Of a stretch of DNA of 55,311 bases, positions 21,695-49,335 are shown piece by piece. The stretch is taken from positions 1 through 55,311 of IMG/VR virus record IMGVR_UViG_3300044846_001238. One strand, written 5' to 3'. The notes under the pieces were generated by a model. It was not told where the DNA came from. It was given only the letters and a program-made list of their open reading frames with translations, and did not search any database. Numbering within the stretch: the stretch's first letter is position 1; every line of letters starts with the position of its first letter. Source of the stretch: a virus. Made by a program: the position numbers and the translations under genes.

Positions 21695-21901
21695 TTATAT
21701 TTTATCAGTATTGTCTTCAGGGCTATTTTGAGCAATACGAGCTCTTAGCTCATATAAAGCGGCTTTCTGACCAGAGCTGGCATACATAATCAGCTCATCT
21801 TCAGATAGGGTTTTTGGATCTAAAACAACCTCTTTAGACCCACCTTCATAATCTACGATATATCGTATTTTAGTTGGTATTTCTTTATTATTTAATATCA
21901 C
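21695..21901 (-). CDS. Small protein of the 'TLSE-EL-YAS-G' paralogue family (copy 3)
   Basis: This 68-residue protein starts at GTG (21899-21901) with a strong AGGAG site, 11 bases after the 5852-residue gene. Its core 'LDPKTLSEDELIMYASSGQKAALYELRARI' aligns with the 84-residue protein at 39810-40064 ('TLSEEQLDVYASMGAEEAIDELKSRI') and more weakly with the 100-residue protein at 39515-39817. No known family was recognised. The three copies bracket the larger giant gene, which suggests a role linked to it, such as chaperone, tether or regulator. Function not known. Confidence 0.7.
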   Translation of the reverse strand: MILNNKEIPTKIRYIVDYEGGSKEVVLDPKTLSEDELIMYASSGQKAALYELRARIAQNSPEDNTDKI

Positions 21902-21912
21902 GATTTCTCCTA

Positions 21913-22374
21913 CTATTCCGAGTTTCTTACGTTTATTCTATTTTTTATTTCATCTACTAGGGCCTCGTCCATAAATACTCTATCGGAGTACCCTAGTTGG
22001 CTCAGTACAGGCTGTAAGACCAGCCCAGCGTATGATTCAGCAAAATACTCAGACAAGCTGGATAAAGCATAACCATCTAGCATTTCTTTAGCTCTGTTTT
22101 GCATACCAGACTTGATAAGATTTTCAAGAACTACAGAGAGTCTTTCTCCATTTTCAGAGAACGCGTTATCTAGTAAGTGGCCATACTCATGGGCAAGGAC
22201 ATAGGTGAGCTTGTCTTCTTCGCTAACTCTATCTCTTACATTTTTAAATGCCAATTTGTAAACCTGATTTATGTCTAAATCTATTTGATCTTGGTCAGGA
22301 GAGAACATGCCAGCAGCTTTTTTCATTATATAAGATAGATCTTTTAGGTGAATATCCATAGCACCGCCACCAAT
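21913..22374 (-). other. Zincin-like metallopeptidase domain 3 (C-terminal)
   Basis: 'VLAHEYGHLLDN' (H5761) and 'SEYFAESYAG' form a full HExxH plus downstream Glu. It lies after the last P-x-V-D motif, so cleavage there would free it as a ~300-residue protein. Confidence 0.65.
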
Positions 22375-25300
22375 AAAGTACCCGCTATCTAAAATACGTT
22401 TGTGAGCGGCTGTAGCCCTTAAAATGTCCGCGTCTGAAGCATTTTTATTGGAGAAAAGACCATCCTCTAAATGACGCTTAATAGTGGTGCCAGTCTCAGC
22501 GTGCTCGTAAATGTCAGCTTTACCGTGAGCCACAATCAGTGAAACAAGAAGTTTCTGCTCTGAGTGCAGATTTTCAACTTTTTCAGACATAATAGCATTT
22601 AGATTTTGCTTAAAGCTTTCCTCTTCTCCGTAACCAAACTGAGAGAAGAAGTAGTCAGACAAGTCTCTAGTTCCCCAGTCTGAAGGTAAGTTAGGGATTG
22701 GCTTTGCTCTGTGCTCTAAGATTTTTTTAGCTGTTTTTACATCGGCTTTTGTAACATTTTTAAATAGAATTTTATCTGTGGAGCCGACTTTTTTGTCTAC
22801 AGTAGGGCCTTCAGGCGCTTTTGCAGCATCTGCCTCAGCTTTTAAGCTTTCCTGAGTAATTTTTACTAAGTTTTCATAGTATCGCTCGTTATCTTCATCC
22901 ACTAGGAAATCCTTGTAGTCGAGCTTTCTAGTTAAGAAAAGACCATTTTTAGAAGTTAGACGACTCAAAGCCACGTACAGTTGACCAGCAGCAAATGCCT
23001 TGCCATCGGTTCCATCAGCGTTTTGTAGATCTACAATAGCTCTTTCTATAGACAGACCCTGAGATTTGTGGATAGTCATTGCATACGCAGGCAGCATAGG
23101 TATTTGAGTATATTCAGCCAAAACTCCAATACCGCTCTTTTCTACAACCTTACCGGTAAGTTCGTCTATTTGTGTATAGCCTTCTGCGCCTTTAGCCGTA
23201 GACTTACCGTAACCAACCTTAACTCTATTTTTTGTACCGTCTTCTGAAACTATTTCAACAATCGGTAGACCATCGTCTTCGTCAAAATCAACTACAGTAC
23301 CTTGCGTACCATTAGTCCAGCGGTTTGTTTTTCCAGCAAAACCTGCTTCTCTTCTCAAATCTGCATTGTCATTAAGAACAAATATTACTTTTTCACCAAC
23401 GTAATAGGTAATTTTTTCAGGCACGTGTAGATTATCCTCTGTGAATGCAGACTTACCTTCTCCTGTAAATGTGCCTTCAAACTCTATCCCCAGAGCACCA
23501 GATTGCTGAAGTTTTCTAACTTCTACTTCATTAATTGATCGAGCTCTTTCGTTAGTTAGAACTAGACGAATAATTCCTCTATCCAAAATTTCTTTAGGAA
23601 CTTCAACATTTGATTCATTGAAGTACGCTAGTTCGCTCGCAGTTACTTGGGCTTTAGGAATTTTTTGAAGAGCTTCAGCATATGGTTTATCTTTTTCTTG
23701 ACGTCTGTTTTTTGTCAACATGTAGGCTAGAGGATTAGACACTCCAAGAACGTTAGATTTATACCATCTGTAGCCGCCATATTCTGACAGCATATAGTTG
23801 TGCTTATCTCTATCAAATTTAGAAGCCTTGATACGTGCTAACTTTTTATTTTCGGTCTCTTGTTGGTTTTTATCAGCAAAGCTAAGATCGTCTATTTCCT
23901 TCAAATCAGCTTCAAGTTTAGCCTGCTTATTTGGAGACCAAGCTTCCACCGGAGGCAGCTGATTGTCATCTCCAAATGCTACTACTTTTACTCCACCAAA
24001 AGGCTTTTGGTTGTTTCTAGCAACCCTAAGAGATAAATCTATAAGCTCCATAGTATTAGCGTCTACCATTGAAATTTCATCGATTGTAAGGATATCTGCG
24101 TCTCTAAAAAGTCTAAGTCTCTTTGTATCTCTTCTCAACTCTCTAATGAAAAAATCTAAGGTAGAAATTTGTTGGCCAGGATTTTCTGGATCTTCTTGAG
24201 TAAACCCCTCAGCCACAATTACGTTAGGATTTATTCGGAAAACTGAGTGAATAGTGGCACTTTTTCCCTCTCCAACATTGTGAGCAGCTACTCCTGTAGA
24301 TGCTACAGAAATAATATTTTTTCTAGGTTCTAGCTCAAATATCAATCTCCTAAGAACGGTTGACTTACCTGTACCAGCACCTCCAGTTATTAGCAGTAGA
24401 GATCCTGGAAGTAGTCCTGTATCTATAAAGCTAATTAAGTCTCTAGTTTCTTCATCGTCATCAATGATTTCAGTTTGTTCGCCGTACGGGCTACCGTCTA
24501 AGTTAGAATTAGGAGTGTAGTTTTCTAGTTTATCCTTAGTTTCTTGCTTCAGTCCCTGAGGCACATTAATTCCAGAAATTGGTTCATTGTTTTCTATACG
24601 CTTCTGAAGTCTTTTTGCCCTAAGAATTTCTAGATAGTCAGAAGCTGTTCCAGCTGTAGCCATTGCCAGTGAATTTAAAATTATGTCTCTTTCTTCATCT
24701 GAAATGTAAGAGTTGTTGTAGCCGCTAATCTCGCTCAAAATATCGATAATTTCACGTACTTCTTCTATTGAAGGTTTACTAATAGGGTTCTGGCTGTCTG
24801 GTATAGGAGTAGGCCCATTTACTTTTCTATCTACGCTAGGAACGCCATTTCGGTTTTTATTTTCCTCATACAACTGACGGAAAGACATCCTGCCCTTAAC
24901 TATTGGACGTTCAGCAGGAGGCGGAGTAGCCGGGGCGGCCGGAGTCGCAGGTCTAGCTGGAGTGACTGGAGTGGTGGTAGCTGGAGCAGAGTCGGTTGAT
25001 TCTGGAGCAGGACCTAGTTGCGCTCTTACATTCTTAGTTAGAACCATTTTTTTAAGTTTGCCAGAATCTTCTAATATACTTCTTCTTCTCTGGCTAAGTT
25101 TTAGTAGGCTCTTGTACATATCTTCAATACCAGAATTAGTTTGGAATTTACCATCAACAGCAGTAGACATTGAAGTATAGAATTCTGTACTCAAAAAACC
25201 TTTGCTATACAAAGAGTTTAGCAGGAGTGTTATTTTATCAACTGTACTAGGATTCGGCTTCATATCGTTTGAAAGGTAGGCTGGCTCTGAACCAATAGTT

Positions 25301-28300
25301 TCTCTTTGGTGTTGAATAGGCACTAAATCTGTTACAGGGACTTCGTAGAAGTCGTAGGATTTATTGCCATCCTTGTCAATATTGGTCAACACTGCAAGCT
25401 CTACTACACCAGGAGATATAAATTTACTGATACGCCCCTTTTTACCACCCTTAGTCCAAACAAAGAACATAGATTCTGCAACAATAAAGGACTGTCCTCC
25501 AGATTTAACAAAAGATTCAGTAACATCTTCTAGGTCCTCGATAGACCTTAGCTCGGCTTCATACTGTCTTAGATCGTTGTATGGATCCTCATCATTTATC
25601 GATATGCTACCGCTAGTTAGATATATTTTACCGGAGGCGTCAAAATTAAATCTTCCGTCAATAAGCTGCGTTTCTCTCACGGCGTCCATGTCTGGGTCGT
25701 CGGCTATGCCAGCAAAACGTACTACAATAACTTTTCCTGTAGGAGTTCCGTCTTTTTCTTGATACTCATCTAGCACTTGGTAAATCTGACCAGTAACACT
25801 GTCTTTAACCAGTCTACCCATAAGTTTAGAGATTTCATCCATGTCAGGAGAAAGTCCTTCAACGCCAGACTTTAGAACAACTCTATCGCGTAGAGGGTCT
25901 ACAATAGGGGCGTCTTCTAGTCTAGTAACCAAGTCATCATTGTTAAACACAAAATAAGGGTTGACGTGCATTGGCCACTCTTTAGAGCTGAATGGAACGT
26001 TTGACCGTGACCACTCCTTACCCACTACCTTTGGAGATAGGTATTCGCTTGATTCAAACTCACCAGTTATTACTCTGGTCGGGATGTGAGTCAACCCTAT
26101 ACGCTTCGCTGCTTCAACGTGGTGGTTGCCGTCGGCTACAACAGACTGTCCAGTTTTTGGATTATAGTAAACAACAACAGGATCAGAGAATCCCTTATTG
26201 GCGTTGATTTTTTCAATAAGTTCTTGAACTCTATCTTCGTTAACTTCATTACCAGCAATCGAGCTTAAAGTTTCAACTGATACAGCACCAACTACGCTAT
26301 TGTTTGGACCAAGACCTCCGCCAGTAGATGAAGAGTAGTCCTTTGATCCATTAAATACAGGGTTATTTAGGTACTCAGAGGCAACCTGAGCAATCAGGTC
26401 TTCTTCTATAGAGTCTCTGTTGTCAGGGTTAAAGTTTATTCTAGTTCGCTCTCCAAAACTTTGAGATGTCTGTCCAGCTAAAAGGGCGGGGTCTGCTATA
26501 GGGCTTACGTTAGACGGGTTTAAGCCGCTTTCAGAGTTAGTAAACGCAGGGAGCCCTAGGTGGTTTTTCGGGTTCTGATCTACTGAACGTGCCCATGCAT
26601 CTTCTTGAACAGTCTGCTCAGTACCAAAACGTAAATACTTAGTGCTATTCTGCTTAGCAAACGCCAGCATAGCTGTAGCAAGGCCTCTACGACGGTAAGC
26701 ACCGTCAACTTTAGTACCTTGGATTTCAAGTTCTCCGCGATCTAAAGTTCCACCCGCTATGTGGTTTCTAATCTTTAATTGACCAGCTGAATTCTTGATC
26801 AGGTCATTTAGAGTAGAGTCAAAGCCGACAAAGTCACCTAAAGTTTGGTTTGGCTTAGATACAAAGACATAAGCTGATTCTGAAACATCGTCAGCAGGAT
26901 TTGACGGCTCGCTAGAAACATATGCAATTTGGTAAGTATTTCCAGACGCATCCGTGTAGGAACCAACCACAAAATTGTTGTTAAACTTTGAATCACTAGA
27001 AGCGTATCTTAGTGGTACGAACGGCTTATCAGTCTGCCATCTACGGAAAGACCCTGGCTCGGTTGAGGTAACAATGCTGTCGAAAATAGTGTCTACAGTT
27101 TGACGAGGATTGTTTTTAGGGTAAGAGAAGAACTTAGCGTTGTATAGGTCATTTACAGTGGACGCGTAGGCAGCGTATCTGTAGAAGTTTTCTGATGAAG
27201 GGTTTTTAAGATACCTAGCTTTAGTTCCTTCAGCTAAGGTATAAGCCATGAATAGGACTTCATCGAAATCTGCATCTACTGGAAGTCCATAAGGATCTAA
27301 GCCATTAGAGTAGAATGCTGACCTACGACCATAAGTGTAAAGATCTGAATTAGCATCACGACTCTTCGCAGCCCTAGGGAATCTAGGAGAAGGAGATTCC
27401 ATCTTATCGACGCTAGCTAGGTCGCTTCCAGTCTTGTCGGTCTTAAGCATAGGGCTTAGTGTGGTGACTAGAGGGTCTAGGTATTGTAGGAATCTCTTGA
27501 TTTCTGGGTGGCCATCGGTTGTCTGACCATTGCGCATAAGTAGGTAGCCAGCTCTTACAAACTCAGCGAAACTCTCTTTAATGCTTTCATTACCGTACAC
27601 GCTAACAGGGTGTTTATCATCACTACTGTATAGAGGGAACTTGGACTCAAACTCTTTAAATCTCTCGTCATGCTTACCCTTGCCATTTATATCTTGACCC
27701 AAGAAAACCTTAGCTAGTCCGTGGCCCAAGTACTCGTGGATTAAAGTATTTAATATACCTTTTTCTGGAATAGGTTTTTTAAAGTTATTTCTAGGGTTTT
27801 CTTCGTGCTTAGCGGTAGTGTTTAAGACTATGTGCATTTGAGTCTTGCTTTGGTTTAGTACGTTAAAACCTTCATACTTGTCGTTTAAAAATTCACCAGC
27901 CATGGTAAAAGTGTTACTTTCAGCGAGAGTAACAATAACAGGCATACCACCCATGTCATTAAATCTATTTAGCTCTTTTAGCTCATTAACGATGCTTGAA
28001 AGAATTTCTGGCGTAACCGACCCATCTTTAGTTCTAATGTGGATGTTAGTTTCCGGTACTTCAAATACCCTGTATGTACGGCTATCTTTCCTTTGAGCCT
28101 CGATTATTGGATCAAGTCTGTTTCTAACTTGAGCCAGAACAAGAGCTTGCTGCTCTGAGCTAAGGTTTGCAAAGTCTTCCTCACTTACACCAGCAACAGA
28201 AGAATATCTTGCAGCCACTTTATCGTCAGATAGGTTTGGAAGATAGCCAGCAGATTCATCTGTTTCTCTTAACCAAGCGCCCCAAGTGCCGTTGTTTGCA

Positions 28301-31300
28301 TTAGTAGCATTTTCAAACTGCTTAAGCTCTTCTTCTGTTTTTTCAATCAAGTCTGGAATTTCTTGATTGCCAACCTTAGCAACGATTCTTCTAGGCTGTA
28401 TGCCACCTTCTCCAAAGAAAGGACCCTTTTTATCTAGTCTTAGCGGATCGATTCGTCCGTCTTCTTTGGCTTTTTCGATAAAGTTTTTAAAGTCTTGTGA
28501 CGCAGGTTTAGTATCAGTAAGAATGCTGTAGCCCAAGTCTGCCATATGCTCAGCAAAGTTTTCTGACATATTTTCTTCGGCATATAGTGTTAACTCAGAA
28601 TTTTTAAATTCTTCGATAAAGTCTTTTCTAGCTTGGCCGCCTAAAGCTACTTCGTCATACACGTGACCGTACTCGTGAGCAAGAGTAAATACAGCGTCAT
28701 CGATAGTGCCTTCAACACCTTGTCTAGGATCTTTCCCTGTTCTACCGATAGTTGATGAAGAAATACCTATGTGTGCTAGTTTATCTGTAACTACAGCGGC
28801 ACCAACAATAGTACCCTGATTCAAAAGTTCGAGTTGCTCTGGAGAGTAGATACTTACTCTAAGCTCTCTACCATCTAATGGAAGCTCTTTTTGTAGTTTC
28901 ACTGCAGCACGTAAAAGACCCGGAGCTTTTAGAGTCTCATCAGCTGAGTAAGTTAAACTAACGTTACCCTCTCTAATAGTTTTTGTTTTACCACGCTTTT
29001 TAAGACTCTGACTCCACGCGTAGTATAGGTCTCTTTCTCTACTACGAATTGCAGCTATCTTAGGGTCATTAGATAGTATGAACTCATAGCTTTCTTTAAC
29101 GCTTGGGATAAGTCCACGATCTACTAAATAGGTTCTAAATCCCCTATCTTTTTCGATGTCACTAAAACTCTTACGATTTCTTATGTGATCGTTGAAGTAC
29201 TCGTTTACTTTTTTTAGCTCTTCAAAGTAGTTCGGCTCGCCTTTTAACTTTTCTAGTTTATTAGACATGATTCTTGCTTTAGTCTTAGATACTCCATAAT
29301 GCACCATAAGGTCGTACATGTCGGTTTTAGAAGTTAGAATGTTGATTAAATCATCGGTGTCTTTTTCAGTAGTTACTGGGTTACCAGATTCTAAAATTTG
29401 AATTGGTTCGCCTGCTTCAGAAAGTTTTTGAAGCTCGTTGATGTTGTCAAGTAGCTCACGAATTCTAGCTCTTTCTTCTGGAAGATAGTCAGACAAATCA
29501 ACAGAAAGTCGGTCAGAAGGTAGCTGTTCTGGTACCACTGTAGTTGGAGGTGGCGTTGGGGTAGGGGTTACGGCCGGAGGCTGGTCTCCAGGTTCTTCGG
29601 CAGCTGGAGTAGCAGCTTGCCCTGGCTGCTCATCGGAGTCGTTTATTGCAACTTCTGAAGGTTTTTCTTCTTCGTAAACTGCAACTAGAGCATTTAGTTT
29701 TACAGTTAGGGTTTCAGAAGAGCCATCTTCATAATCTACAGAAAGTTTTACAAACCCTGCATTTTTTCTGTCTATAGATTTAATAATTCCATAAACGTCT
29801 GAGTCTTTAGCTCTGATTCTGTCGCCAATTGATAAGTCTTTAGCTCTCTTACTTACTTCAAACTCTCTAAGTCCGCCATTCTGAGGCTCCCCGTTTGGAA
29901 CGGTGTTTGAAGATCTAGCAGGTACAAACGTTGCCTTAGATTTTTCTAGAGCCTTTTTGATGTCAGGGTCTTTTCCAGAACGAGCATCGCTCAAAATACT
30001 TGCAATATACTCTTCAGCTTGACCTCTAGTCATGTTTTGGACTGGAGCAATGATTTCTTTAATTTTTTCTTCTGGAACTTCAAGTTTTCTTAGGTCAGGA
30101 GCGAAACCTTCAGGCTTGTATCCAGGGTTAGTTTTAGGGTTTAAGCTCTTTTGCTTGTCTGTAGCAGGAGTGGCAGATCCGATTGCCTTGAGATAAGAAA
30201 TTAGGTCTTTATCTGCTTGCTGCGCAATCTTATCAAAATCTAGGAACCTGTGCCCAAGAGCATTTGTAGATTCTTTTTCTGGGTTTTTGATTAGCCAATC
30301 TAGAATATTGTTTAGAATTCTAGATGCATCGTAAGCATCTGCGTCAGCTCGGTGCCAACCAGTCGGCTCTAGGCCAAAGAATTTCAAAACATCTTCTAGT
30401 TTTGCGCTAGCTCTAAAGTGAGCAGGGTTGTTAGGGTCAACATCTTCGGACTTCATTCCGTCTTTTTGACGCTTAGGTGCGTCTAACTCTACTGGCTTGC
30501 CCTTACTATCGTCTGCATTATATTTAGGTAGGGCGGTGTTGACAAAGTCTAGAGTGTCAATAGCACCAAGAACATCTAGAGATAGGCCGTTACGGTCTAA
30601 GGCTTCTTCAAGAACGCTAATGTCAAAGTTTGCATTGTGGGCAAGAAGAATGGCATCCGCGCCTATAAATTTAATAAACTCTTCTAGAACTTCTTTTTCG
30701 CTCTTTTGCTGGTCAAGCCACTCTTTGTCAATCTTTACAAACTCGCCGGTAGGGTTGCCGTTTTCGTCTAATACTGGACGCTCTAGATTCTTTGCTGACC
30801 ACTCACTCATCACCACGCCATCTTCTTGACGAATAAACTGATTAAAGAATATTTGCTCCCCGTTAGCGCCTTTCTTAGATGCACCAAGCTGGACAATTCT
30901 GTTTCCAGGTTTAAGTTGCCCGTCATAGCTTGACATACCAGTAGATTCAATATCGAAAGGAGTAACGTTAGAGTTGTCTAAAAAGTCTTGAATACCCTGA
31001 ACCCCACCGGTTTTATATGCCTGAGCGATGCGAGCTTGAAGAGCTGCGCCTCTAAATGCACCGCCCTTAGGGGCATAGGCAGGTCTACCGTCAGCGTTAA
31101 AGTTGTCCATGGTCTGAGGTAGAGACGGGGTGCCGGTTTGTGCGCCTAGGTTGCTAGGCTTAGGGGCGGCTGCAGGCTTTTCCTTTGTAACCTCTTCAGT
31201 TGTAGGCTTTTCTGCGGCTGGCTTTTCTTCTGTAGTAGCTGGAGTAGCTTGCTGCTTCCCTCCAAATCTTCTAATAAACTCATTAAGTATAGAGTCTATT

Positions 31301-34300
31301 TCGGATTTGTAGATAAACGGAAGCCAGTCTCCTCCTCTATCGTTTGCATGGCTATCTGCTAACTTAGCAATACGGTCAAACATATTTTTTAGAATTTCGG
31401 CAGTAAGTAAATTATTCTCTGTTACTTTTTTCATATAGTCAAATAAAATAACGTCAATATCTTCTTTAGAGTATTCTTCTCTAGGATTGTTTTTTAAAGC
31501 ATAGTCAATAAGGCCATACAAGTTACCAAAAATAGTCATTGCATCCTGCTCTGCAGGTTTTTCTTCTTCTTCTACAACTGGCTCGGCGGCTGGCTTTTCT
31601 GGCGTAGGCTCGGCGGCTGGCTTTTTGTCTTCGGCTGCAGGCTGCTGAGGTAGAGGGTTGCCGTTGATGTCTTTAGTTGGCTTGTAGGTCTTGATTCTTT
31701 GGACAACCTGAATCGGGGTTACGCCTAGGTCAATGATAGGCGGGGTCATATTAACTCCACGGCTATCGTCTAGGGTCCAACCGTTGTTGATGCGCCAAAT
31801 AGTTTCAGCTAAGTCTAGAGTCCTAACGATTCTTTCGATTTCATCTTTAGTTAGGTCAGGCTTTTCTAGAATGGCAACTAGTGCGTTACGCTGCTCCTGA
31901 GTAACTACCCCTGAAGAGAACTGACGGTTAATGTAGTTTCTTTGGTTTTGCGTTAGGTTAGCTTTAGCTACAGCAGGAGTCGCTGCTTCAATTTTCTTTT
32001 TAAGACTCTCTACAGCCTGCTGAATTGTTTCTTTTTTATTAGTAGAGGTTTTTATGTCGTAATCTATTTCAAGCTTGTAGTCGGCACTAATTACCTTAGC
32101 GGCTACGGCTTTTTGGATAACGTCGTCAAGCTCTGCTTGAAGTTTTGGAAGTTCGTATTCTTCAAAAAGAGTTTCGATTATGTCATTAGCTTGCTCTTTT
32201 GTAGTGTTGTTATTAAAAGCTTTTAAGAAGTATGCAATCGAGGTTTCATCCATGTCGGGTTTGTATTTACCCATAAGACGGGCATACTCTTTGAATTGAT
32301 CGTCAGTAGCCAGATTCTCTTCTGGAATACGAGCATCTCTTCTTTCTTTGATAAGATTTTTTAGACTGTCAGTGCCTTGGCTCTTATCTTCAAAAAGCTC
32401 GCCTGGGTCTTTAAAGCCTTGAGGAATAGTTACGGTAGAGATTTCGTAGTTATATCCAGAATCTTTTAGAGTCTCGTACACGCCTTTAGTGGCTTTTTTA
32501 CCTGGCTCATCGGAGTCAAGGCTAAGAATGATTTCCTTTAAATCGCCGCCAAAAGTATCTTGAAGTAGTTCAATTTGCTTAGGAGAAATACTAACACCGC
32601 TGATTGCAACAACGTTGTTTATTCCTGCCTCTCTATAGGCAAGGACGTCGGCTTGGCCCTCAACAAGAATAAGTTGACCGGTCTCTTTTACAGAATCAAG
32701 AGTGTTCTCTAGGTTGTATAAAACTTCGCTTTTATTAAATACAGATTTATTTGTCTCGTTAGGCCCAGCCGTAAGTATGTATTTAATAGCCCCGCTTTTG
32801 CCACTAATGTCTCTTCCGTTAAACCCTACAACTCTACCCTTCGAGTCCTTAAACGGGAATAGAACTCGATTACTAAAGCTATCTAATAGCCTGTCTTCAA
32901 ATCTGTTTACAAGACCTGTAGCAAGTATTTCGTCTACAGTAAATCCTAGGGAAGTTAGGTGCGCAGATAAAGATAATTTAGAATCTCCAGCAAAAACAAT
33001 GCCGAGCTCTTCTACTGACTTACGGCTATAGCCCCTACCTTCTAGGTATTTAATTCCTTTATTATCCTTAGACGCCATCTGCTTGGCATAGAACTCAAAG
33101 GCTGCTTGCATGATGTCATAGGTTTTTTGTCTGTCTTCTTCGACAACCTCTTCTTCAACTTCTTCTTCAACTTCTTCTTCAACTTCTTCTTCAGCGCTAT
33201 CACCGGCGACATACTTCTTAATAGCAGCTAGTACTTCACTTCTAAGAACATTTATGTCTTGGCCAGACTGAGCAAAAACCTCAATTTCTCCTGAGTCAGG
33301 ATCTAGAATTACATTTTCTTCAGGATAGATATCAAAAAGGTGGTCTGCAAGGTCTTCATAGCCCTCAGGGATGTTTCCAACTATAGAAATCTTTCCATTG
33401 TTTTGGACAGAGTAAGTGACTCTAGGAGAGTCTGATAAAATTCCAGTGGTGTTTACCTCGCCAGTGATAGGTTCATCTTTAGAAGTCTGAGCCGTCTGTA
33501 CCGCAGGTGCTTCGTCAAATTCTTTTTGTATAGCGTTAATTAAGTTCTCTACTAGAACCTGTACTGACTCTGACTCTCCTGGATTAAGCTCTATTACCCA
33601 GTTTTTTCTTTTCTCGTCTTCGCTAAGGAAGTCTTGTCTACCTTGGCCATCCGCTGATTTTTTAGTTCCGTCACCGTTGTAAAAGAAAGGAGGGGTAAAC
33701 TTACCAAGTGTGCTTGGCATTTTAGCTACTGCATTTTGTAGAGTTATGTGGGTAGGTGAGTTGGTGGCTATACTCGGGAATCCGAAAATCATCAGTACCC
33801 TACCGTTACCTAGAACTTCATAAGATACGCGGCGTTTTCCGCCTTTTGTTTTTATAAAAGTACCCTTAGAGCCCGGAAGACCCTTAGCACCAGGAACTGC
33901 AACAGTTGGCTCCGCTGCGGCTTTGGCCTTAGACTTGCTTCCCATTTTTGCAGCTGTTTTTACAACGTCTTCGTACTTATAGTCGACTTCTGGTATAAAT
34001 TCTTTACCCTTAGAGTCTTTTAGTACTAGTTGAACAGTGCCGTCTTCGTTTTCGTCGGCAGCAACAAATCTATAGGTTTTGCCCTCAATAACAACAATGT
34101 CATTGACTTTTAGGTCTTCAACAGCTTTTTGACCGTCTGTGGTAGTAGTAGCTGGCTCTTCTTCATCTTCTTCAGACTCACCTTGATTAGGTTTGCCCTC
34201 TACATTAGGTTTTCTGTAAACATTTTCTAATTTGTAAGGATCTTTTTCATTAGCTTTTTTAGATTTTTGTACTAAAACTCGATATAGCTCGTCTGGATTT

Positions 34301-39471: not shown

Positions 39472-39514
39472 AGATAAGTCTTTCTTTGGTGGTAAGGCCT
39501 ATAGCAATTTTAGT

Positions 39515-39817
39515 CTAGTTTTGTTGGTTTGATTCTTTGGCGTGTTTGATTCTAGCTTCCAACCAGTATTCAGGAATCTCTGTGCCTTTGTTTCTTTTTT
39601 GCCACTCGTAGCTCCAGTCGTTCTCTTCAAAAGTTGGAGGACGCTTGTACCAAACTGGATCCCAACCTTCTCGCTCTCTGTACTCTAGGCGAGCATCTTC
39701 AAAGCCAAGCTCCATATAAAACTGAAGCAACTGCTCCGAGGTCATTTCAGACCAGACAACTTCTTTTGTAATATCGCCGTCTTTTGTTCTAATGTTGATA
39801 ATTACTTTTTCACTCAT
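39515..39817 (-). CDS. Small paralogue family protein (copy 2)
   Basis: This 100-residue protein starts at the ATG at 39815-39817 (MSEKVIINIRTKDG). That start overlaps the end of the upstream gene by eight bases and has GGAAG upstream. A longer reading from 39871 would simply use the upstream gene's Lys-rich coding bases and is rejected. Its 'KEVVWSEMTSEQLLQFYMEL' aligns with the 'TLSE-x-x-L-x-x-Y' core of the two neighbours, followed by an extra aromatic, basic C-terminus ('WDPVWYKRPP', 'WSYEWQKRN'). It directly precedes the 5852-residue gene. Function unknown. Confidence 0.7.
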   Translation of the reverse strand: MSEKVIINIRTKDGDITKEVVWSEMTSEQLLQFYMELGFEDARLEYREREGWDPVWYKRPPTFEENDWSYEWQKRNKGTEIPEYWLEARIKHAKESNQQN

Positions 39818-40064
39818 TGCTGTTGTCTTCCTTCTTTTTCTTTTTCTTTTGAGATTTCTTCCACTTAGCATACCTCTCGACGTCTTTATCAGACATCTCT
39901 TCTAAAGGTTTGTACGGGTTAAATCCTATACGAGATTTTAGCTCATCAATAGCTTCTTCTGCGCCCATAGATGCGTAGACGTCTAGTTGCTCTTCAGACA
40001 GGGTTTTGACATCAATATCAACTACCTTGCTAGTGCCGTCAGCTAGAGTGAAGTGAACCTTCAT
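39810..40064 (-). CDS. Small paralogue family protein (copy 1)
   Basis: This 84-residue protein has ATG at 40062-40064 behind AAGGA. It contains 'VKTLSEEQLDVYASMGAEEAIDELKSRIGF' (core shared with the 68-residue protein at 21695-21901) and ends in a strongly basic Lys run (KKSQKKKKKKED). The basic tail could bind nucleic acid or acidic partners such as the acidic linkers of the giants. It sits between the two giant genes, with a possible promoter just upstream. No known family recognised. Confidence 0.7.
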   Translation of the reverse strand: MKVHFTLADGTSKVVDIDVKTLSEEQLDVYASMGAEEAIDELKSRIGFNPYKPLEEMSDKDVERYAKWKKSQKKKKKKEDNSNE

Positions 40065-40089
40065 TTTCGTCCTTACTATTGATTAATCT

Positions 40090-40098
40090 AGTATAGCA
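40090..40098 (-). promoter_or_regulatory. Candidate extended -10 promoter
   Basis: TGC-TATACT on the minus strand matches an extended -10 (TGnTATAAT-like). It lies in the 43-base gap after the 3075-residue gene and about 25 bases before the next ATG. No clear -35 is seen. It could give the small paralogues and the 5852-residue gene their own transcript. Confidence 0.4.
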
Positions 40099-40107
40099 AA
40101 AAATAGA

Positions 40108-43100
40108 CTACTCAATACCAAGTCGGTTGTCAAGTTCAGCTAAAGCTAGCCTAATCTTAGGGGTAGGATCGGGGTCTAAAGCTCCAGAAGAACCTAGGCT
40201 ACTCATGCCTAAGTAGGCAAATAGTCTGTTTCTATCTTCAGGAGATAGCTCGGTTAGTCCTGTTCCAGACTCTAGCATAGCTAAGATTTGTAGAAGACCT
40301 AATCTGCTAGTTTCGTCCCTTTGACGCTTAGCGTTAGGGTTAGCTTGCAAATCAGCAATTTCTCTATTAGTCATCTCGATTTCGCCGTTAACATCAGCAT
40401 CAGTAGCAAACCTAAACGGAACGATTCTCTGCATGTAAGGAGTTTTTAAAGACAGCTTAAGTGACTTTATGTAAGAAAGCTTTCTTTCCATAAGATCTCT
40501 ATTGAACTTAGAATAGTAGTCTTCTCCAGATGGGCTGACTTTTTTGTCTACAACAGGACCATCGGCGTCCTGTTCATTAGACTTATTAAAGTCTTCGGCA
40601 GTGAGACCCATCTTTAATCCCATTTCTATTAGCTCTTCTTCTGTGGCGTCAGGATTTTCGTCTCTTAGAATAAGCATAGATGCATTTTTTAGAGCTTCTG
40701 GCGTTATGTAATTAGCTAGTCCGCCAAAGTCTATTCTACGCTTGGCTCTGGTTCCGGAAACGTACCAGCCGTTAACCTCCTGCCTATTTATGGCCTTGTT
40801 AATCTTTTCTTGCTTTTCTTTTGCAAGACGTTCTTCTTGTTGTTCGTCGGTTTCACCTTCTAGCTTTTCTGGCTTAGCTTTAGCAACACCCTCTTCTTCT
40901 GGTTCGTATGTAGGATCCCAGTCTTTCCAAAGTCTAACGTTCTCTTGCTCTAGACCCTTAGCTGTGTGTGAAGTAAGGAACTGAACTGCAGCGTCTGATC
41001 CGCTAAGGGCGTTGTATACCGCAAGTATTTCATTCTTTAGGGATACCTCATCGGTTGAGTCAATAGCTTTAATCCACTCAGCCGCACGGTACATTTTACC
41101 AGTTTCCTGTCTGTCTGGAACCATTTCGGTGCTTCTTTCAAAACCTAGGCTTTCTAGAAGAGGAGCGTTTTCAAACAAAGGAGACTTTTTGCCTTCTCTT
41201 CTGTAAGATCCAGGTTTCTTAGCTCCACCCGGCAGGATTACCAAATTACCGTCTCTAACAGAATAAGCAATTTCATTACCAAAGAATCCGTTTAGACCTA
41301 CTTCTTCTGGCATCTTATAGTCATTGTTTACAATCCTATAATCATTTATTCTTCTAGATAGTTCGATAAGAGCAGGTCCAGGAAGTAACCTTCTACCTTT
41401 AGTTCCTTTTTCTGGGTCGGCCGGTCCTCTTAGTTTACTCATCAAACTAAAAATAACCCTAGTGTCTTCGTCAGCAGTGCCAGCTTTAATTGCTGCTTCG
41501 ATGCTTCCCCATGTAGCTCCAATCAAATCCGCTGGCCTTACAACAGGTGGTTTTGCATTTTCAATTCTAGACCTAGTAGCTTCAACTTCACCCGCTAATT
41601 TCATATAATCTTCAATCTGCGTAAGAGTTAGACTTCTGTCTTCTCTCTTAGATAGAGATTCAATTGCATTTTTAAGCTCTAACTTAGCTTCTCTAATTTC
41701 ACTAGCTGTAGTCATAGGAGTGTAGATTGGAGCTCTTGGATTTGTTCTGTCAACTCTAACTAAAATAGGCTCTTTAGTTGTTGGGTCTATACCTCTATAG
41801 GCAACTTTAAGTTCTTCATATGCGGCTTTTAGTTTAGGAGCTTCTACAAGAAGAGCAGCTGCAGCTTCATTGAGTTTTCGTAACTTAGCGTTGTTTAGGT
41901 CGTCATAGTATAGATATTTCATAGTGTCTACGTGAGCAGACACTCTTTGCTTAAGTCCTGCAGTGATAGCAAAATACTTACCGTCATAAAAACTTTCGGT
42001 TTCTAGATCAAGAGTCGCGTCTAAGATACCAGCGTTAGTTCTAGTAATTAAGAACATGTCATCTAGCAGCATGGTGTTAGGCTCAAAAATCTCTCCAGAC
42101 TCGTTAACCGCGCTTTGAAGGAATATTAGTGAACCTAGTGCTTTTAGTATGTCATTAGCTGGCCCTAAAATTTCTGGTGAAGACCTTCTGTTGACTGTCA
42201 ATGGGAACTCAGCGTCAGCTACTAACTCATTAAGAGCGTTAGCGGTACCACTAAATCCAAAAATACTTTGATTCGTATCTCCTACAGTAATAAATTGGAT
42301 ACCGTTACCTTTTTGACGCTTCATAATGTCAATAAACACAGGGTTTAGGTCCTGAGCCTCATCCAACATAATAACGTTAGGTATTTTAGGTAGACCTAGT
42401 TCACTGGTGACGCCGCCTCTCGGGCCAACTGTAGCTGAAGATAGGTCTATATTACCTAGAGACCAGTTCTTTACCATGTGTTGCTCTCTAACAACTAACT
42501 GACGTTTGTTTGGGTCGTGCGGAGATAGAATGTCTTGCCAAAAATCTTGTGCAATTAGTGCAAGTTGCTCTATAAATACTCCTTCATTTCTAGAAGCATC
42601 TTCTGGAATGTCAACTATATATTCCTCACTGTAACTGAAATCATCGCCTTCAATTTCTACAGGAGTAGTTCCCTCGTTAAAAATCTCGACTATTCTTCCG
42701 TCGACATCTTTTCTTACATAGCGCTTTCCGATAAATACTCCGTCTTCGCCAACAAGCTCGCCTACTTTAAGAGAGAGTGGGTCAAGATCATTTATGTCCT
42801 TATCCTTGCCGACAGTTAAGAACTTACGCGCTCCTGGCGACCAGCTTGGGTTAAGAGAAAGCATATTTAAAAAGTCTTTAAAATGCTTTCTAGAAATTTC
42901 TGTATCTGCAGAGTTAACCCAGTTTTCTAGACCATCATATGCGAGTCTTGCTAAATCTACACCGCGCAGGTAAACACCGTATTGCTCTTGTATAGCGTCG
43001 CCATACTGATCTTCGAGGAAGAAGCTTTCCGCAATGTCATACGCTGAGTAGCGTATGGTCATACCTTCACTATCGCCAAGCTGTTTAGGAATAGCATCGT

Positions 43101-46100
43101 ATTTTCTTCTCAGTTCTTGGTTTGGCTTAACTCCCATAGCAACAGAGTGTAGAGTTCTAGCTGCAATGTTTTTAACGCCATCTAGTCTAGCTTCAGCTTC
43201 TTCTTGGTTTTCCTTACCGAAAACCATGTACAGTAGGTTCTTGTCTGGGTTCATCGCCGCATAGACATATGCTAGAACCTCTAGCATGGTAGTTTTACCT
43301 GTACCCGCAAGCGCGTTTACAATTAAATCCGGTCTATTGTCAGATAAAGCTGCCTTAAGAATATTTTCAAGCTCACTGGTTAGTTGAACTTTAGGCATAT
43401 ACCTATTAACTAGAGATAAATTAAGAACAGTTTTGTCATATTTTTCAGTTACTAGTTTAGGAGTTTTTTTCTTAGCATCTACAATAGGGCCTGCAGAGCT
43501 AGAAGCACTCTGCTCAGCGGTAGGTAGAGCCTCAGGAGTGTCTTTGTTAGCCTTTACTATGTTTTGCTGTTCTCTAGAGTTAACAAGCATTGAAATCAGG
43601 TTGTTTAGGGCAACACGAGGATATGAGTCACTTTTAATGCTGCTTTTTACGGCATTAGCAAAATCCCTAGACAAAGCCTTAGAAGCCAACAACTCGTCTA
43701 CCAAATCTAAAGCGGTGTCTTTGTTTTCTTTTTCAGAAACCGGCACTCCCGCATACGGAAGAACGGAAATTTCATTTACTGGAACCTTGTAAATCTTTTC
43801 GCCATTTTTAATAATGCCTACTCCGATACCATTAAACCCAGAGAAAGTTCCTGCCTCGTTGTCGCCTAGAGAAGAGTGAGTTACAGTCATTCCCAAATCT
43901 AAAGCCATACCGTTTTTAGAGACAATAGCTTCGGTAGCGTTGTATAGGATTGAAGGCTTAACTTTTTGAAGAGTAGTTCTACCAGAAGATAGATACTCAG
44001 CCGCAGGGAACTCAACTAGAACTAAACCTTCTCCAGTAGATCCGTATGATCTACCAATCTGATTTGTTAAAACGTTTAGAACGTAGCTACCTGCCCCGAG
44101 CTCAGAAACTACTCTGCTGGCTGGCATTGTTGAAGTTCTGTCTTCAGGTCTTTCAACCACTCTTCTGCTAGCTATTTCTTCTAGTGAACTGAGAATTTGA
44201 TTAGACGCTTCAGCAGAGTTTGAGTCTGCAGATTGTCTATTTTTATCCAAGATGTTGTTGACAAACATAGCATAGTCAAATAGTTTTCTACCAAGCAGGT
44301 AGTCAGCAACTTGATTCTTATATTCTTCGCTTGCTGTTGCGTACTCAGAGTCTGACCAGCCATTCTTAGAACCCTCAAAGTCAAAAGTTCTGCCCTTATC
44401 GGATTTTCCTTCAGCAGCAAAATCAAGTATTTTACCTAGGATTTCCAAAGTAGATACAACGTCAGCATCCGCTTCGTGACGTCCGTTGTTAGATAGACCG
44501 AAGTATGTCACCAAAGCTTCTAGGCTGTCTGACGGTACTTGGACACCATATTTACCTTGGCTAGGGAAATCGCTCAACCTAAATGGTGCGTTAGGGGTGC
44601 TTGCTGACCATCTAGGCATGACGTACTTAGATAGACCGAAAGTGTCAATAAAGCCACCAAACTTGTACTGAGGCAGTCCTGACTCTAGTAGGGTTCTGTT
44701 TAGTACTTCCATATCAAACATAAATCCATTGTGACCAACTAGCACGGCACCCTCAGGAACCATGTCTAAAAAGTCTTGCATAGCATTTAGTTTGCTCTTT
44801 TGATCCTGCAAAAACTCTTTAGTTACTTTTTTGCCAGTGCCGTCACCAATAGTGTTCATAGTGAACTGGCTAAGCTGGGATTCTGGATTTATGTATGAGT
44901 TGTATTGCTCTTGAATTGCAAAGTTGAATGCTTTTGCGATAGCAAGCTGAATAGGGTCATTTTTGATTTCAGGGGCGTCAACGTCGAAAATACCTGTTGT
45001 TTCAAAGTCAAAAACGTATAGAACTAGCTTAGAGATAAAATCTCTAACCTGCTCCCAATCAGACATGTTTCTAAGTGGCTCCAGTGCTTCACCTGCGAAA
45101 GCCGGTGGAGTAAATCTTTTCATGTTTGGCTTAGGAGAGTTGATGTCAATTTTTCTATCAACAATCGGACTGTCTTCCATGTCCTGGCCAGCAGTATATG
45201 CCCCGACCAAGTCAGAGACTACAATAGAAGCCGCGTCTTCTAGGTTACGTAGAGTTTTTTCTTTAGGGTTTCTTATTTTACCGTAGCTGTAACTAGCTGT
45301 TGGTATGTTAGCTAAGGCAGTACCAATAAGTTTTACTCTGCGATCAAACTCAGCTGGAGACTGTTGCATAATATTTTTACGTCTACCATCTAGAGCACCT
45401 CTAAGTGATGAAAGTTCCTCAATCGCTTGTTGAACAAAGCGCTTACCATCAGAGTTTAGTTCCCTATTAGATTTCTTTAACATCTCTCTTAGCTGCTTTA
45501 CAACAGCATCGATGTCTATTCTAGTAGCTTTAGCAGCCTCTTGTCTGGCTAACTTAGCTCTTAGTGCAGCCTGCTGCTCTTCATTAGTTCCTAGGTTGTC
45601 ATCTAAGTTTTCCGCAGCACTAGATAGTGCCTCAATAATAGGTGTCCACCAAGGATCTAGTCCGTGTCTTTCAACCAACGTCGGTAGGAACTTGTTACTG
45701 GATTTATTTCTAAGTTTTTGAAGATCTTCTGCAGGGAAGTCGGCTCCAACGTTAGCATCTAGCGGAGCATAGGAGTCAGGTACAATAAAGTTACTCGGTC
45801 TTTTTAAATCAGTAAGATCTAATCCATTACGCATCGCGTACTCAAAAACTAATAGATCGAAATCTTCTTCGTATCTTCTAGTTACATCTATGAGTTTTGC
45901 AAACCACCTTTTATCTTTTGTTTTGTAGTTTTGCAGTAGGAAGTCGGAAAGAGCTTTTGGAAATGCTCCCTTAGCTAAGCTACGCTCAACGGATGCTAAC
46001 TGCTTAGCTGAAGGTCCGCCTTCTTTTTCTGGAATAGCCTGAGTAAATACTTTTGGAACAAACTTTTCTAGTTTTTCTTGTCCCCAAAGTGCATTAAAGT

Positions 46101-49100
46101 CATACCACTCATTAATTGGCATTTTTCGGTGGTTTTTCATAAAATATCTAAGTGCGGCTGGACTTATATCATAGTTATCAATAACTTGCTTAGCCTTTAC
46201 CATTATTGATTTAGTAGGTGCTTTAGTACCGACTAAGTCTGTACCAAGAGGGGCATATTCAGACTCAGGAATGTCATCTAGCCCTCTTCCTTCAGCAATT
46301 TCAATAGCGGTAATGTCAATAGTCTCGGTAATGTCAGTAGTCTCAGCACCGTCGACAGCTTTTGGCTTTGCTCTGTATAGCTTATACTGAGCAATCTTTT
46401 CATTCATCTTGCTCTGAGAATATTTGTGCATTCCTGCTAAGTCGTTTAGACTTTCTTGTATTTTGTCTTCAGGGACGTTTCGGTCTCTAATTAGAGTTTT
46501 TAAAAACTTTCTTTGATCCGGGCTTCCTGTTACACCTTCTTCAGCAGTACGCTGGATAGCAATTGCTGACGCACGATTAAGTGTGTCTTGCACTTCCTTA
46601 AAACCATAGTTGTCTAGGTTATTAGCTATTTCATATAGTCTGTCAACAAGGAATGCGTCGTCAACAATAGCGTAAAAAGCTAGAAATTTTAATCTGTTCT
46701 TAATTTTATCAGAAAGAGGGTTGGAAACATCCTTAGGGTCTTTCTTACCTTCTGTTATTTTAGGGTCTGGACCGTCTCCGGTAAGAATAGGGGTTTCGGT
46801 TGCAGGTGTCTCTGAAACACTGGCCTTACCACTCTTTAGTTCTGCGTCTCGTCTTAGATTTTCTTCAGTCGGCAGAACGCCTGAACCGCGATATACAGAA
46901 ACAGGCTCGTCTTTCTTGACTCGTATAAACCCACCTGCTACACCCTCGCTATCACCCTTGAAGTAGATACCTAGGCTGTCTGGTTTATCAGGGTTTTCTT
47001 CTATTCTTAAGATTTCCTGAGGGACTCCGTTTTCACCAACTATAGCGTCAGAGACGATTACTTCACTACCTAGAACCTTTTTTACGTCTTTAAAAGTTAG
47101 TCCGCGTTTTACGTTACTTCCTCGGTAGTTGTTAAGGACAGCATTGATTTGCGCTAAAAATGAACTTCCTTCATATGTAGGAGCAAACCTAAACTGATCT
47201 ATTTTAGCTTGTAAGTTTGCGTATTCCGCTGGCGGTACCTTATAGTTCGATAGATTCGCAATTGCTCTACGAATTTTTTCTCTCTGCTGAGGGTAAATTA
47301 GAGATCCCTTTGGGTTCACATCTGCAAGACCACCGTGATATAGGTTGTAGTACAGAGTTGCTAAATCTTTTACAGTAAACTCTTGAGGATAGTCATGCAT
47401 CTCATCCCATAGATCGACTGCCTCGGGCAAGCCTTTTCTTCTTAGTAAGTCTTTATCAAGTGACATGTAAAATCCAGAGTTTTGTATTTCAGATAGGATT
47501 ACACCCTCTCCTACACCCTCTACACCAAGCTTAGCCTCGTATCCTCCAGCATTGAGAACATTTTTAGTTTGGGCGGCCTTTTCAATCTTTGCAGCGATAT
47601 CTTCGTTCAAAGGCTCCAAAAACTTTTTGCGTTCAGGTAGCAGGGAATCCTTGTCTACAGGTGCTTTATCAGCAACATCGCCGGCTGCCATTCTGTCAAC
47701 GATAGGTAGGTCTTCATCTTCTTCGTAGCTACGAGTAAATCTTTCAACACTATCCCAACTAAAGACTGAAGCAATGTAGTGTCCAGTTCTGTTGGAGTAG
47801 ATGTTCATTGTTCCAGGAGTAATTAGCGGGGCATCTCCAACATATCTTTCACCAGTTTCAATATCCAGTGTGTCAACAGATTCTGTTCCAACAGATAGGT
47901 CACCATACTCGGCTACATATAGGCCGTCGACTGAGAGGAACGTGTTAGGCTGCTCTGTCTGTCTCCAAGTTCTAGGTAGAGATTGGATAGGGTTAAATCC
48001 AGGCAGTTCTGTGTCGTCTTCTGTTTCGTCTTCTTCTAGCACTTCTTCTTGCACTTCAGGAAGTTCGGCAACTACCTGTGGTTGAGCAACTTCTTCAATT
48101 GGCTCGTTTTCAGCGTCTGGATAGTTAGTGTCTTCTGCAGTAGTCATCTGCTGAACTCCGGACCAGTCCTGAGCGTATCCAACTACTTCTTCTTGACCAC
48201 GCTTTGTAGAAATAAGCTCATAAACAGGCTTATCTCCCTCTAGAGTGTCAGTACCCTTAGTGTTTAGTACTGTTGCTCCAAATTTATCCCGAGCCTCGGC
48301 TACGCGGTTTTCTAGAGCTTCAGTTACTCCGTTATACATAGCCAAACGGTAACCGTCTCCAGTTGCATAGTTTTGTGCTGGCTTTACGTTAGTGCTTAGC
48401 AGAGCTGCTCCAGCGGCTGATTCGGTTGTGTACCAGCTTGTAGGGAGGTCCTTACGAATCATGTCTGCAATGTCAATAAAGTTTACGCCTAGTCCAGGCC
48501 CTACTGGAGAAGACTTTTCGATAGCTTCGGCTGGAAGAATGGCCTTGAAGAACTTAGTCATGTCTGACGGAACGGTATAGATGCCAGGAGTGATTCCAGG
48601 AACATCGGTGATTTCTAAATCGATACCCTTAGGGTCGTTCTCAGGAATACCAGCAATCTTACCAACCACAGAGATAATGTTTCCCATAGGCATTTTGACG
48701 TATAGACGAGCTCCGCCACCCATCTCGGCGAACTGACCTTCTTCGTCACGACGCTGCCCTTCGGCACGCATCTTTCTGTGCCAGAAGCTGTTCTTACCGG
48801 CGTACGGATCACCAAAAGCAAGAATTGGTCTAATACGTAGGTCGCTAGGGATTTGGTCTCTTACAGAGCTTAGACGGATCATGTTGTAGTGGAAATCTAG
48901 GCTGTTAGGGTTGCTACCATAAACAGCAGCAACAATAGCTCTGGCGTTCTCGTCTGTGATTCTAGGGTCTGAGGCAATCCATTCAGCCCGTAGCTGACGT
49001 AGCTCTAGTGAGGAGAACTCGTGGGCTGCAGTTGAGTTAGGGTGGTTTACAGGAAGTAGGTCTGTGTGCTTAGCCACTGTTTCTGAGATATTTCCCTCAG

Positions 49101-49335
49101 AGGCAAAAGTAACAAAGTTGGTAACTTCACGAATAACATTAAAGTGCTGAACGTCAGTAGCAAGTGCAGCACTGGCAGTTAGAGCGCGCTCTGCAACGCT
49201 AAAGACAGCGTCGTCTGAAACTTTACGAGCTTCTGGGACATCTACGTTCCTAGTCTCAATGATGTCGATAATAGAGTCTCTTAGACCTATTCCGCCATCG
49301 TAGTTTTCATCGAACTGATCAATTAAGTTACTCAA
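40108..49335 (-). CDS. Giant 3075-residue polyvalent protein (DEDDh exonuclease and UvrD-like helicase)
   Basis: This 9.2 kb frame begins at TTG (49333-49335), four bases after the previous stop, with GAGGAAG upstream. Residues ~185-290 hold a module shared with the larger giant ('RRDEEGQFAEMGGGARL', 'DVPGITPGIYTVPSDM'). Acidic linkers and helical regions follow to ~1390. Then come the exonuclease (~1435-1640), beta spacers, the UvrD-like helicase (~1975-2880) and a helical C-terminus. Four P-x-V-D motifs (543, 1389, 1949, 2926) fall between these blocks. The region ~590-1380 was not recognised. Together the enzymes suggest DNA processing at entry or replication start. Packaging in the head is inferred. 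Confidence 0.83.
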   Translation of the reverse strand: MSNLIDQFDENYDGGIGLRDSIIDIIETRNVDVPEARKVSDDAVFSVAERALTASAALATDVQHFNVIREVTNFVTFASEGNISETVAKHTDLLPVNHPNSTAAHEFSSLELRQLRAEWIASDPRITDENARAIVAAVYGSNPNSLDFHYNMIRLSSVRDQIPSDLRIRPILAFGDPYAGKNSFWHRKMRAEGQRRDEEGQFAEMGGGARLYVKMPMGNIISVVGKIAGIPENDPKGIDLEITDVPGITPGIYTVPSDMTKFFKAILPAEAIEKSSPVGPGLGVNFIDIADMIRKDLPTSWYTTESAAGAALLSTNVKPAQNYATGDGYRLAMYNGVTEALENRVAEARDKFGATVLNTKGTDTLEGDKPVYELISTKRGQEEVVGYAQDWSGVQQMTTAEDTNYPDAENEPIEEVAQPQVVAELPEVQEEVLEEDETEDDTELPGFNPIQSLPRTWRQTEQPNTFLSVDGLYVAEYGDLSVGTESVDTLDIETGERYVGDAPLITPGTMNIYSNRTGHYIASVFSWDSVERFTRSYEEDEDLPIVDRMAAGDVADKAPVDKDSLLPERKKFLEPLNEDIAAKIEKAAQTKNVLNAGGYEAKLGVEGVGEGVILSEIQNSGFYMSLDKDLLRRKGLPEAVDLWDEMHDYPQEFTVKDLATLYYNLYHGGLADVNPKGSLIYPQQREKIRRAIANLSNYKVPPAEYANLQAKIDQFRFAPTYEGSSFLAQINAVLNNYRGSNVKRGLTFKDVKKVLGSEVIVSDAIVGENGVPQEILRIEENPDKPDSLGIYFKGDSEGVAGGFIRVKKDEPVSVYRGSGVLPTEENLRRDAELKSGKASVSETPATETPILTGDGPDPKITEGKKDPKDVSNPLSDKIKNRLKFLAFYAIVDDAFLVDRLYEIANNLDNYGFKEVQDTLNRASAIAIQRTAEEGVTGSPDQRKFLKTLIRDRNVPEDKIQESLNDLAGMHKYSQSKMNEKIAQYKLYRAKPKAVDGAETTDITETIDITAIEIAEGRGLDDIPESEYAPLGTDLVGTKAPTKSIMVKAKQVIDNYDISPAALRYFMKNHRKMPINEWYDFNALWGQEKLEKFVPKVFTQAIPEKEGGPSAKQLASVERSLAKGAFPKALSDFLLQNYKTKDKRWFAKLIDVTRRYEEDFDLLVFEYAMRNGLDLTDLKRPSNFIVPDSYAPLDANVGADFPAEDLQKLRNKSSNKFLPTLVERHGLDPWWTPIIEALSSAAENLDDNLGTNEEQQAALRAKLARQEAAKATRIDIDAVVKQLREMLKKSNRELNSDGKRFVQQAIEELSSLRGALDGRRKNIMQQSPAEFDRRVKLIGTALANIPTASYSYGKIRNPKEKTLRNLEDAASIVVSDLVGAYTAGQDMEDSPIVDRKIDINSPKPNMKRFTPPAFAGEALEPLRNMSDWEQVRDFISKLVLYVFDFETTGIFDVDAPEIKNDPIQLAIAKAFNFAIQEQYNSYINPESQLSQFTMNTIGDGTGKKVTKEFLQDQKSKLNAMQDFLDMVPEGAVLVGHNGFMFDMEVLNRTLLESGLPQYKFGGFIDTFGLSKYVMPRWSASTPNAPFRLSDFPSQGKYGVQVPSDSLEALVTYFGLSNNGRHEADADVVSTLEILGKILDFAAEGKSDKGRTFDFEGSKNGWSDSEYATASEEYKNQVADYLLGRKLFDYAMFVNNILDKNRQSADSNSAEASNQILSSLEEIASRRVVERPEDRTSTMPASRVVSELGAGSYVLNVLTNQIGRSYGSTGEGLVLVEFPAAEYLSSGRTTLQKVKPSILYNATEAIVSKNGMALDLGMTVTHSSLGDNEAGTFSGFNGIGVGIIKNGEKIYKVPVNEISVLPYAGVPVSEKENKDTALDLVDELLASKALSRDFANAVKSSIKSDSYPRVALNNLISMLVNSREQQNIVKANKDTPEALPTAEQSASSSAGPIVDAKKKTPKLVTEKYDKTVLNLSLVNRYMPKVQLTSELENILKAALSDNRPDLIVNALAGTGKTTMLEVLAYVYAAMNPDKNLLYMVFGKENQEEAEARLDGVKNIAARTLHSVAMGVKPNQELRRKYDAIPKQLGDSEGMTIRYSAYDIAESFFLEDQYGDAIQEQYGVYLRGVDLARLAYDGLENWVNSADTEISRKHFKDFLNMLSLNPSWSPGARKFLTVGKDKDINDLDPLSLKVGELVGEDGVFIGKRYVRKDVDGRIVEIFNEGTTPVEIEGDDFSYSEEYIVDIPEDASRNEGVFIEQLALIAQDFWQDILSPHDPNKRQLVVREQHMVKNWSLGNIDLSSATVGPRGGVTSELGLPKIPNVIMLDEAQDLNPVFIDIMKRQKGNGIQFITVGDTNQSIFGFSGTANALNELVADAEFPLTVNRRSSPEILGPANDILKALGSLIFLQSAVNESGEIFEPNTMLLDDMFLITRTNAGILDATLDLETESFYDGKYFAITAGLKQRVSAHVDTMKYLYYDDLNNAKLRKLNEAAAALLVEAPKLKAAYEELKVAYRGIDPTTKEPILVRVDRTNPRAPIYTPMTTASEIREAKLELKNAIESLSKREDRSLTLTQIEDYMKLAGEVEATRSRIENAKPPVVRPADLIGATWGSIEAAIKAGTADEDTRVIFSLMSKLRGPADPEKGTKGRRLLPGPALIELSRRINDYRIVNNDYKMPEEVGLNGFFGNEIAYSVRDGNLVILPGGAKKPGSYRREGKKSPLFENAPLLESLGFERSTEMVPDRQETGKMYRAAEWIKAIDSTDEVSLKNEILAVYNALSGSDAAVQFLTSHTAKGLEQENVRLWKDWDPTYEPEEEGVAKAKPEKLEGETDEQQEERLAKEKQEKINKAINRQEVNGWYVSGTRAKRRIDFGGLANYITPEALKNASMLILRDENPDATEEELIEMGLKMGLTAEDFNKSNEQDADGPVVDKKVSPSGEDYYSKFNRDLMERKLSYIKSLKLSLKTPYMQRIVPFRFATDADVNGEIEMTNREIADLQANPNAKRQRDETSRLGLLQILAMLESGTGLTELSPEDRNRLFAYLGMSSLGSSGALDPDPTPKIRLALAELDNRLGIE
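40537..40560 (-). other. Boundary motif GPVVDKKV (residues 2926-2933)
   Basis: It lies between the helicase and the C-terminal helical segment. Confidence 0.65.
40696..43413 (-). other. UvrD-like SF1A helicase domain of the 3075-residue protein
   Basis: Walker A 'NALAGTGKTTMLEVLA' (K2014), 'RTLHSVA', 'MLDEAQDLNP' (D2325), 'FITVGDTNQSIFGF', 'LTVNRRSSPEIL', 'FLTSHTAKGLEQENV' (~2789) and 'YVSGTRAKRR' (~2859) are in order. This is a complete helicase core. Confidence 0.85.
43468..43491 (-). other. Boundary motif GPIVDAKK (residues 1949-1956)
   Basis: It lies directly before the helicase. Same eight residues as at 35215-35238 in the larger giant, with four synonymous codon differences. Confidence 0.7.
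44416..45033 (-). other. DEDDh exonuclease domain of the 3075-residue protein
   Basis: 'FDFETTG' (D1443, E1445), 'VGHNGFMFDME' (~1531) and 'RHEADADV' (H1620, D1623/D1625) give a complete DnaQ-like set. It differs clearly from the copy in the larger giant. Confidence 0.85.
45151..45171 (-). other. Boundary motif SPIVDRK (residues 1389-1395)
   Basis: It lies about 50 residues before the exonuclease domain. Confidence 0.65.
47689..47709 (-). other. Boundary motif LPIVDRM (residues 543-549)
   Basis: It lies after an acidic stretch that follows the N-terminal module. A weak related APVDKD follows within about 20 residues. Confidence 0.45.

Follow-up and report, generated by a model that had tools for sequence, protein, structure and literature searches.

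What does a short peptide motif do when it recurs at the domain joints of two giant proteins encoded inside a phage head gene cluster? This question is raised by the window considered here, i.e. the whole stretch of 55,311 nt analysed from one virus record (IMGVR_UViG_3300044846_001238, positions 1 to 55,311). On its minus strand, the gene order is portal (51577-53373), Dps-domain fusion (49340-51559), giant B (40108..49335; 3075 aa, with exonuclease and UvrD modules), two small proteins, giant A (21913..39471; 5852 aa, with CHC2, DNAG_N/Toprim, exonuclease, zincin, ParB-like and PIF1 modules), head maturation protease fusion (17020..21639; 1539 aa) and major capsid protein. From this gene order alone, the giants may be packaged in the head. 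In the Dps-domain fusion, the Dps-like domain (phrog_3636) is joined to a virion-cluster protein otherwise without known identity. Besides, an RRDxxGxFAxMGG-like element, a possible head-targeting domain, is common to several head-cluster proteins, being found in giant B (residues ~190-208), giant A (~30-50), the protease fusion and locus L002. Regarding the host, a search via genome contigs returned just short, weak matches to archaeal MAGs, which were set aside.

The motif P-[IVST]-V-D is present in eight copies across the two giants, at residues 1413, 4522, 4878 and 5556 of giant A and 544, 1390, 1950 and 2927 of giant B. The preliminary description, in which these copies were taken for possible polyprotein cleavage sites, had listed all eight, each one or two residues earlier. 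In giant A, PIVDAK (A1413; 35218..35235) stands 7 residues before the module detected with a DnaG CHC2 zinc-finger query, PIVD (A4522; 25897..25908) between the ParB-like module and a module of unknown nature, PSVDRK (A4878; 24823..24840) 128 aa before the PIF1 helicase, and PTVDKK (A5556; 22789..22806) 20 aa before the C-terminal zincin module. In giant B, PIVDRM (B544; 47689..47706) is followed by PIVDRK (B1390; 45151..45168) before the exonuclease, PIVDAK (B1950; 43471..43488) before the UvrD helicase and PVVDKK (B2927; 40540..40557) after it. Two copies are loose, A4522 (PIVDPL) and B544 (PIVDRM), while PEVDYK at A1827 (33976..33993) matches P.VD.K but is probably stray. The claimed placement at domain joints holds for the CHC2 zinc finger, PIF1, exonuclease and UvrD, and the recurrence of one consensus at several joints within one genome is as expected of polyprotein sites. 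At B1390, the one site modelled, the linker is the lowest-confidence stretch of an otherwise confident AlphaFold2 model of the exonuclease and is thus predicted to be probably disordered.

Counting A1827, P.VD.K occurs seven times in the two giants against 0.15 expected, ranks first among all 4-letter gapped patterns there, and its score was matched by 0/150 shuffles in which residues were shuffled within 60-residue blocks; the strict motif was found nowhere outside the giants in a six-frame search of the window. The peptide GPIVDAKK is encoded in both giants with differing synonymous codons, as previously described, and codons also vary across the other copies, from which it follows that the protein sequence is what selection keeps.

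Querying the viral collection with single proteins brought no close relative of giant A; relatives came through giant B, a profile of its N-terminus gathering 80 viral loci. The sole annotated or isolated phage relative found was DSL-LC01, for the N-terminus of B, and there was none for residues 4380-4960 of A. The expectation that homologues would keep the motif failed in its literal form, as PxVDxK is not kept in relatives aligned to giant B, but a blind pattern count repeated on the giants of each relative uncovered, at equivalent joints, a recurring tag proper to each. These tags are SAVD/S.VD.M in G001, ID[KR]MA ([IL]D[KR]M[AS]) in G008 and G007 (16 sites in G008), VEE[SMF][SA] in G004 and G006, IEDM in L004, and P[QM][FL]MxF in G003, G010, L015 and L007, the latter being among the top patterns but not always first, and unlisted in the partial L007. 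The apparent break in giant B of G001 was rejected as a real split, a run of 10 N marking a scaffold gap. The top or near-top unsupervised pattern varies by lineage and exceeds every shuffle in the seven genomes so tested. An exonuclease profile then brought three previously unused contigs, each with its own top-ranked tag at these joints: PI[ILM]KK in L116 and EQEM[AS] in L119, both exceeding all 60 shuffles, and, by ranking, DID[NE]M in L124. Remoter giants bear IMDPP (L029, L031, L047) or VNYAP (L071, L072, L076), which suggests that the phenomenon extends beyond this phage family. The giant of DSL-LC01 and many distant loci yielded no pattern above shuffles and served as an internal negative control.

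Six joints can be aligned across lineages by their flanks (B544, B1390, B1950, B2927, A4522 and A4878). At these joints, different sites of the same lineage resemble one another far beyond what is obtained when lineages are permuted within sites (z = 12.7, 0/5000), while z is ~0.1 in control windows of 7 residues at -21, -14 and -7; the window immediately after the tag gives z = 4.7, some tags exceeding 7 residues, and nothing is seen further right. As these sites were picked after the motifs were known, the permutation describes the pattern against a control and is no blind test; evidence of a more independent kind comes from the shuffles and from the three lineages added later. The position of the tag is equally regular: 42-46 residues before the B exonuclease in 16/16 genomes, the window and some close kin included, 128-133 residues before PIF1 in 7/7 and 45-58 residues after the ParB-like module in 7/7, the site orthologous to A4522 being tagged in G001, G003, G004, G006, G008 and G010. 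Orthologous joints therefore retain their sites while the linkers around them diverge and the spelling shifts in concert in each genome. Such retention amid diverging linkers is the pattern that polyprotein recognition sites would be expected to leave; this part of the cleavage proposal stands, whereas the conservation of the PxVDxK letters themselves does not.

The tag is thus best regarded as a short linear motif read in trans, a conclusion that is well supported (probability about 0.85). It would be a recognition site at flexible joints of two modular giants encoded inside the head gene cluster, all copies being read by what we infer to be a single trans-acting factor; a shift in the specificity of this reader would drag all copies along and generate a lineage-specific spelling. 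The reader could well be a protease cutting the giants at their joints and freeing the enzymes, i.e. primase parts, exonucleases and helicases, in the manner of a polyprotein. Sequence cannot decide between cutting and docking, and proteolytic processing at the tags, possibly by the zincins of giant A, is put slightly short of an even chance. The lean to cutting comes from the sites being at fixed places beside complete enzyme modules, and from the virus-specific repeated cleavage consensus being the closest known pattern (PMC6357015). The diversity of the tags, which may be acidic (VEE), basic (PIIKK) or aromatic (PQFMRF), speaks against a protease, as no protease position is kept. In RNA-virus 3C-like proteases, P1 is usually retained.

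If the tags are cut, the likeliest cutter would be a zincin metallopeptidase carried in giant A, where a zincin pair (residues 3480-4000; 27472..29034) is a candidate. HExxH is present in giant A of each genome with a long A sequence, and in the zincin region it is accompanied by a downstream ExxxD, the downstream acidic ligands being conserved in the alignment. The pair was modelled with modest confidence (pLDDT 74, pTM 0.55), and the matches of this model in the PDB are weak, to general zinc metallopeptidases. The second zincin of the window (giant A ~3912) reads HEYLGH, one residue too long by comparison with HEYGH or HEYAH in relatives, and may be inactive in this phage. The zincin could not be established as the only possible reader, since the L031 giant, which has its own recurring IMDPP tag, bears no HExxH in the sequence examined and zincin 1 is not unusually divergent.

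Alternatively, the tag could be a short linear peptide docking on one phage partner, with copies at every joint tethering, chaperoning or packing the chain without any cutting, which is a serious if less favoured possibility. The concerted spelling, the flexible linkers and the confinement to the giants would fit docking equally well, and short targeting peptides are known to load encapsulin HK97-fold shells with cargo (PMC10960027). Candidate partners, as readers or chaperones, are the paralogous small proteins 1 (39810..40064) and 2 (39515..39871) encoded between the giants. Where sequence of both giants is available, small homologues occupy the interval between B and A, usually as a pair but as a single protein in L116 and in L119; in the window, a weak third one comes after giant A (21698-21937). 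As universal readers, however, the small proteins were set aside, their model matching none in the tagged L031 or L072. The capsid protein, which would be the obvious anchor, is likewise disfavoured as a reader, being almost the same in lineages whose tags differ. Besides, docking has no need for fixed placement beside modules, which is where the cleavage reading does better.

The cutter had been suggested to be the prohead protease encoded in this gene cluster, and the head maturation protease gene does adjoin giant A; moreover, the spellings VEE, IED, EQE and SAVD hold an acidic residue, like the AXE sites of the giant phage SPN3US (PMC10052503). It is nonetheless an improbable reader. On the contigs scanned, the tag is essentially confined to giants: in the 135 kb record G014, VNYAP has five copies in one giant (VSYAP included) and a further one in the 2957-residue protein next to it, with one variant, VHYAP, elsewhere. 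In none of the lineages scanned was the lineage tag found in the capsid protein, portal or protease fusion. These strongly conserved proteins share instead [LIVM]TA[AGS], an element that stays unchanged across all lineages and DSL-LC01. This makes the head protease a poor candidate: the constancy of this element, itself a candidate head protease cut site, implies that the protease seems unchanged in specificity. The protease fusion of the window holds five such elements against 0.7 expected; others lie within 14866-16884, in the Dps-domain fusion, in the portal and at residues 9-12 of giant A, near the N-terminus of which the element is also found in several lineages.

It had also been envisaged that the motif is a linker used in module shuffling, i.e. 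a landing or joining sequence merely carried along in domain swaps. Modules do move: in the window the CHC2 finger belongs to giant A, 7 residues after PIVD, and in L119 to giant B, 4 residues after EQEM, with none found in the other giants examined, while DNAG_N is carried by giant A in the window and G001 but by giant B in G004, G006, G007, G008 and L004. In the window, the CHC2 zinc finger occupies residues 1424-1519 of giant A, the primase halves being far apart within one chain. A hitch-hiking linker should keep its donor spelling, however, whereas the relocated CHC2 in L119 follows EQEM rather than PxVD and so bears the spelling of its resident genome; codons also differ within a lineage, which implies no recent DNA copying. 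Shuffling accounts for the mobility of the modules but leaves the concerted spelling unexplained, and is very unlikely as the origin of the tags. A signal at the DNA or RNA level, whether an internal start, which the M then A or S of several spellings resembles, a recombination site or another DNA-level repeat, is hardly credible given the synonymous codon variation and the lack of ATG in the strict copies of the window, VEESS and most PIIKK copies, and so is chance, with 0/150 shuffles as good.

Whatever the reader, a recognition code has been replaced in a concerted manner at ~4 to 16 sites of two proteins, a single phage family showing about nine spellings, which amounts to a natural experiment in the co-evolution of a reader and its targets; the literature search found no paper describing such tags. 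If cleavage is true, tailed DNA phages would have a polyprotein strategy and supply a natural series of proteases whose specificities are new; if docking is true, the tags would reveal the way in which giant enzymes are retained in the phage head or loaded into it. Under either reading, the partner can be sought through co-variation. More speculatively, and on somewhat doubtful ground, a group of DNA phages may produce enzymes as giant polyproteins of the head cluster, the self-encoded protease and all its sites having been repeatedly replaced, as a private password of each lineage.

Among known systems, the Actinomycetia phage DSL-LC01 (OQ999401; giant WJZ48510) has a similar head gene order and its giant is homologous to the first 300 residues of giant B, but no recurring tag was found in it and no homology was seen to the helicase, primase or exonuclease modules. 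As with encapsulin targeting peptides, the tags are short and in flexible regions of a would-be cargo with an HK97-fold shell nearby; unlike for encapsulins, the capsid protein shows no variation in step with the tag and the docking role is putative. The sites cut by SPN3US gp245 (AXE) offer another parallel, with a short consensus in head-cluster proteins of which some are probably ejected. In contrast to the giants, SPN3US proteins mostly lose N-terminal propeptides upon cutting, and one motif is used for the portal and other head proteins alike, whereas the capsid proteins of the tagged phages are devoid of the tag. With respect to RNA-virus polyproteins, the giants differ in being DNA phage proteins, known here from sequence, in which no tag position, not even the most constant one, is kept across lineages. 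Yet, just as the NIa protease of TEV recognises the virus-specific consensus ExxYxQ/(S,G) (PMC6357015), one short virus-specific consensus is repeated in these phages at the joints between enzyme domains.
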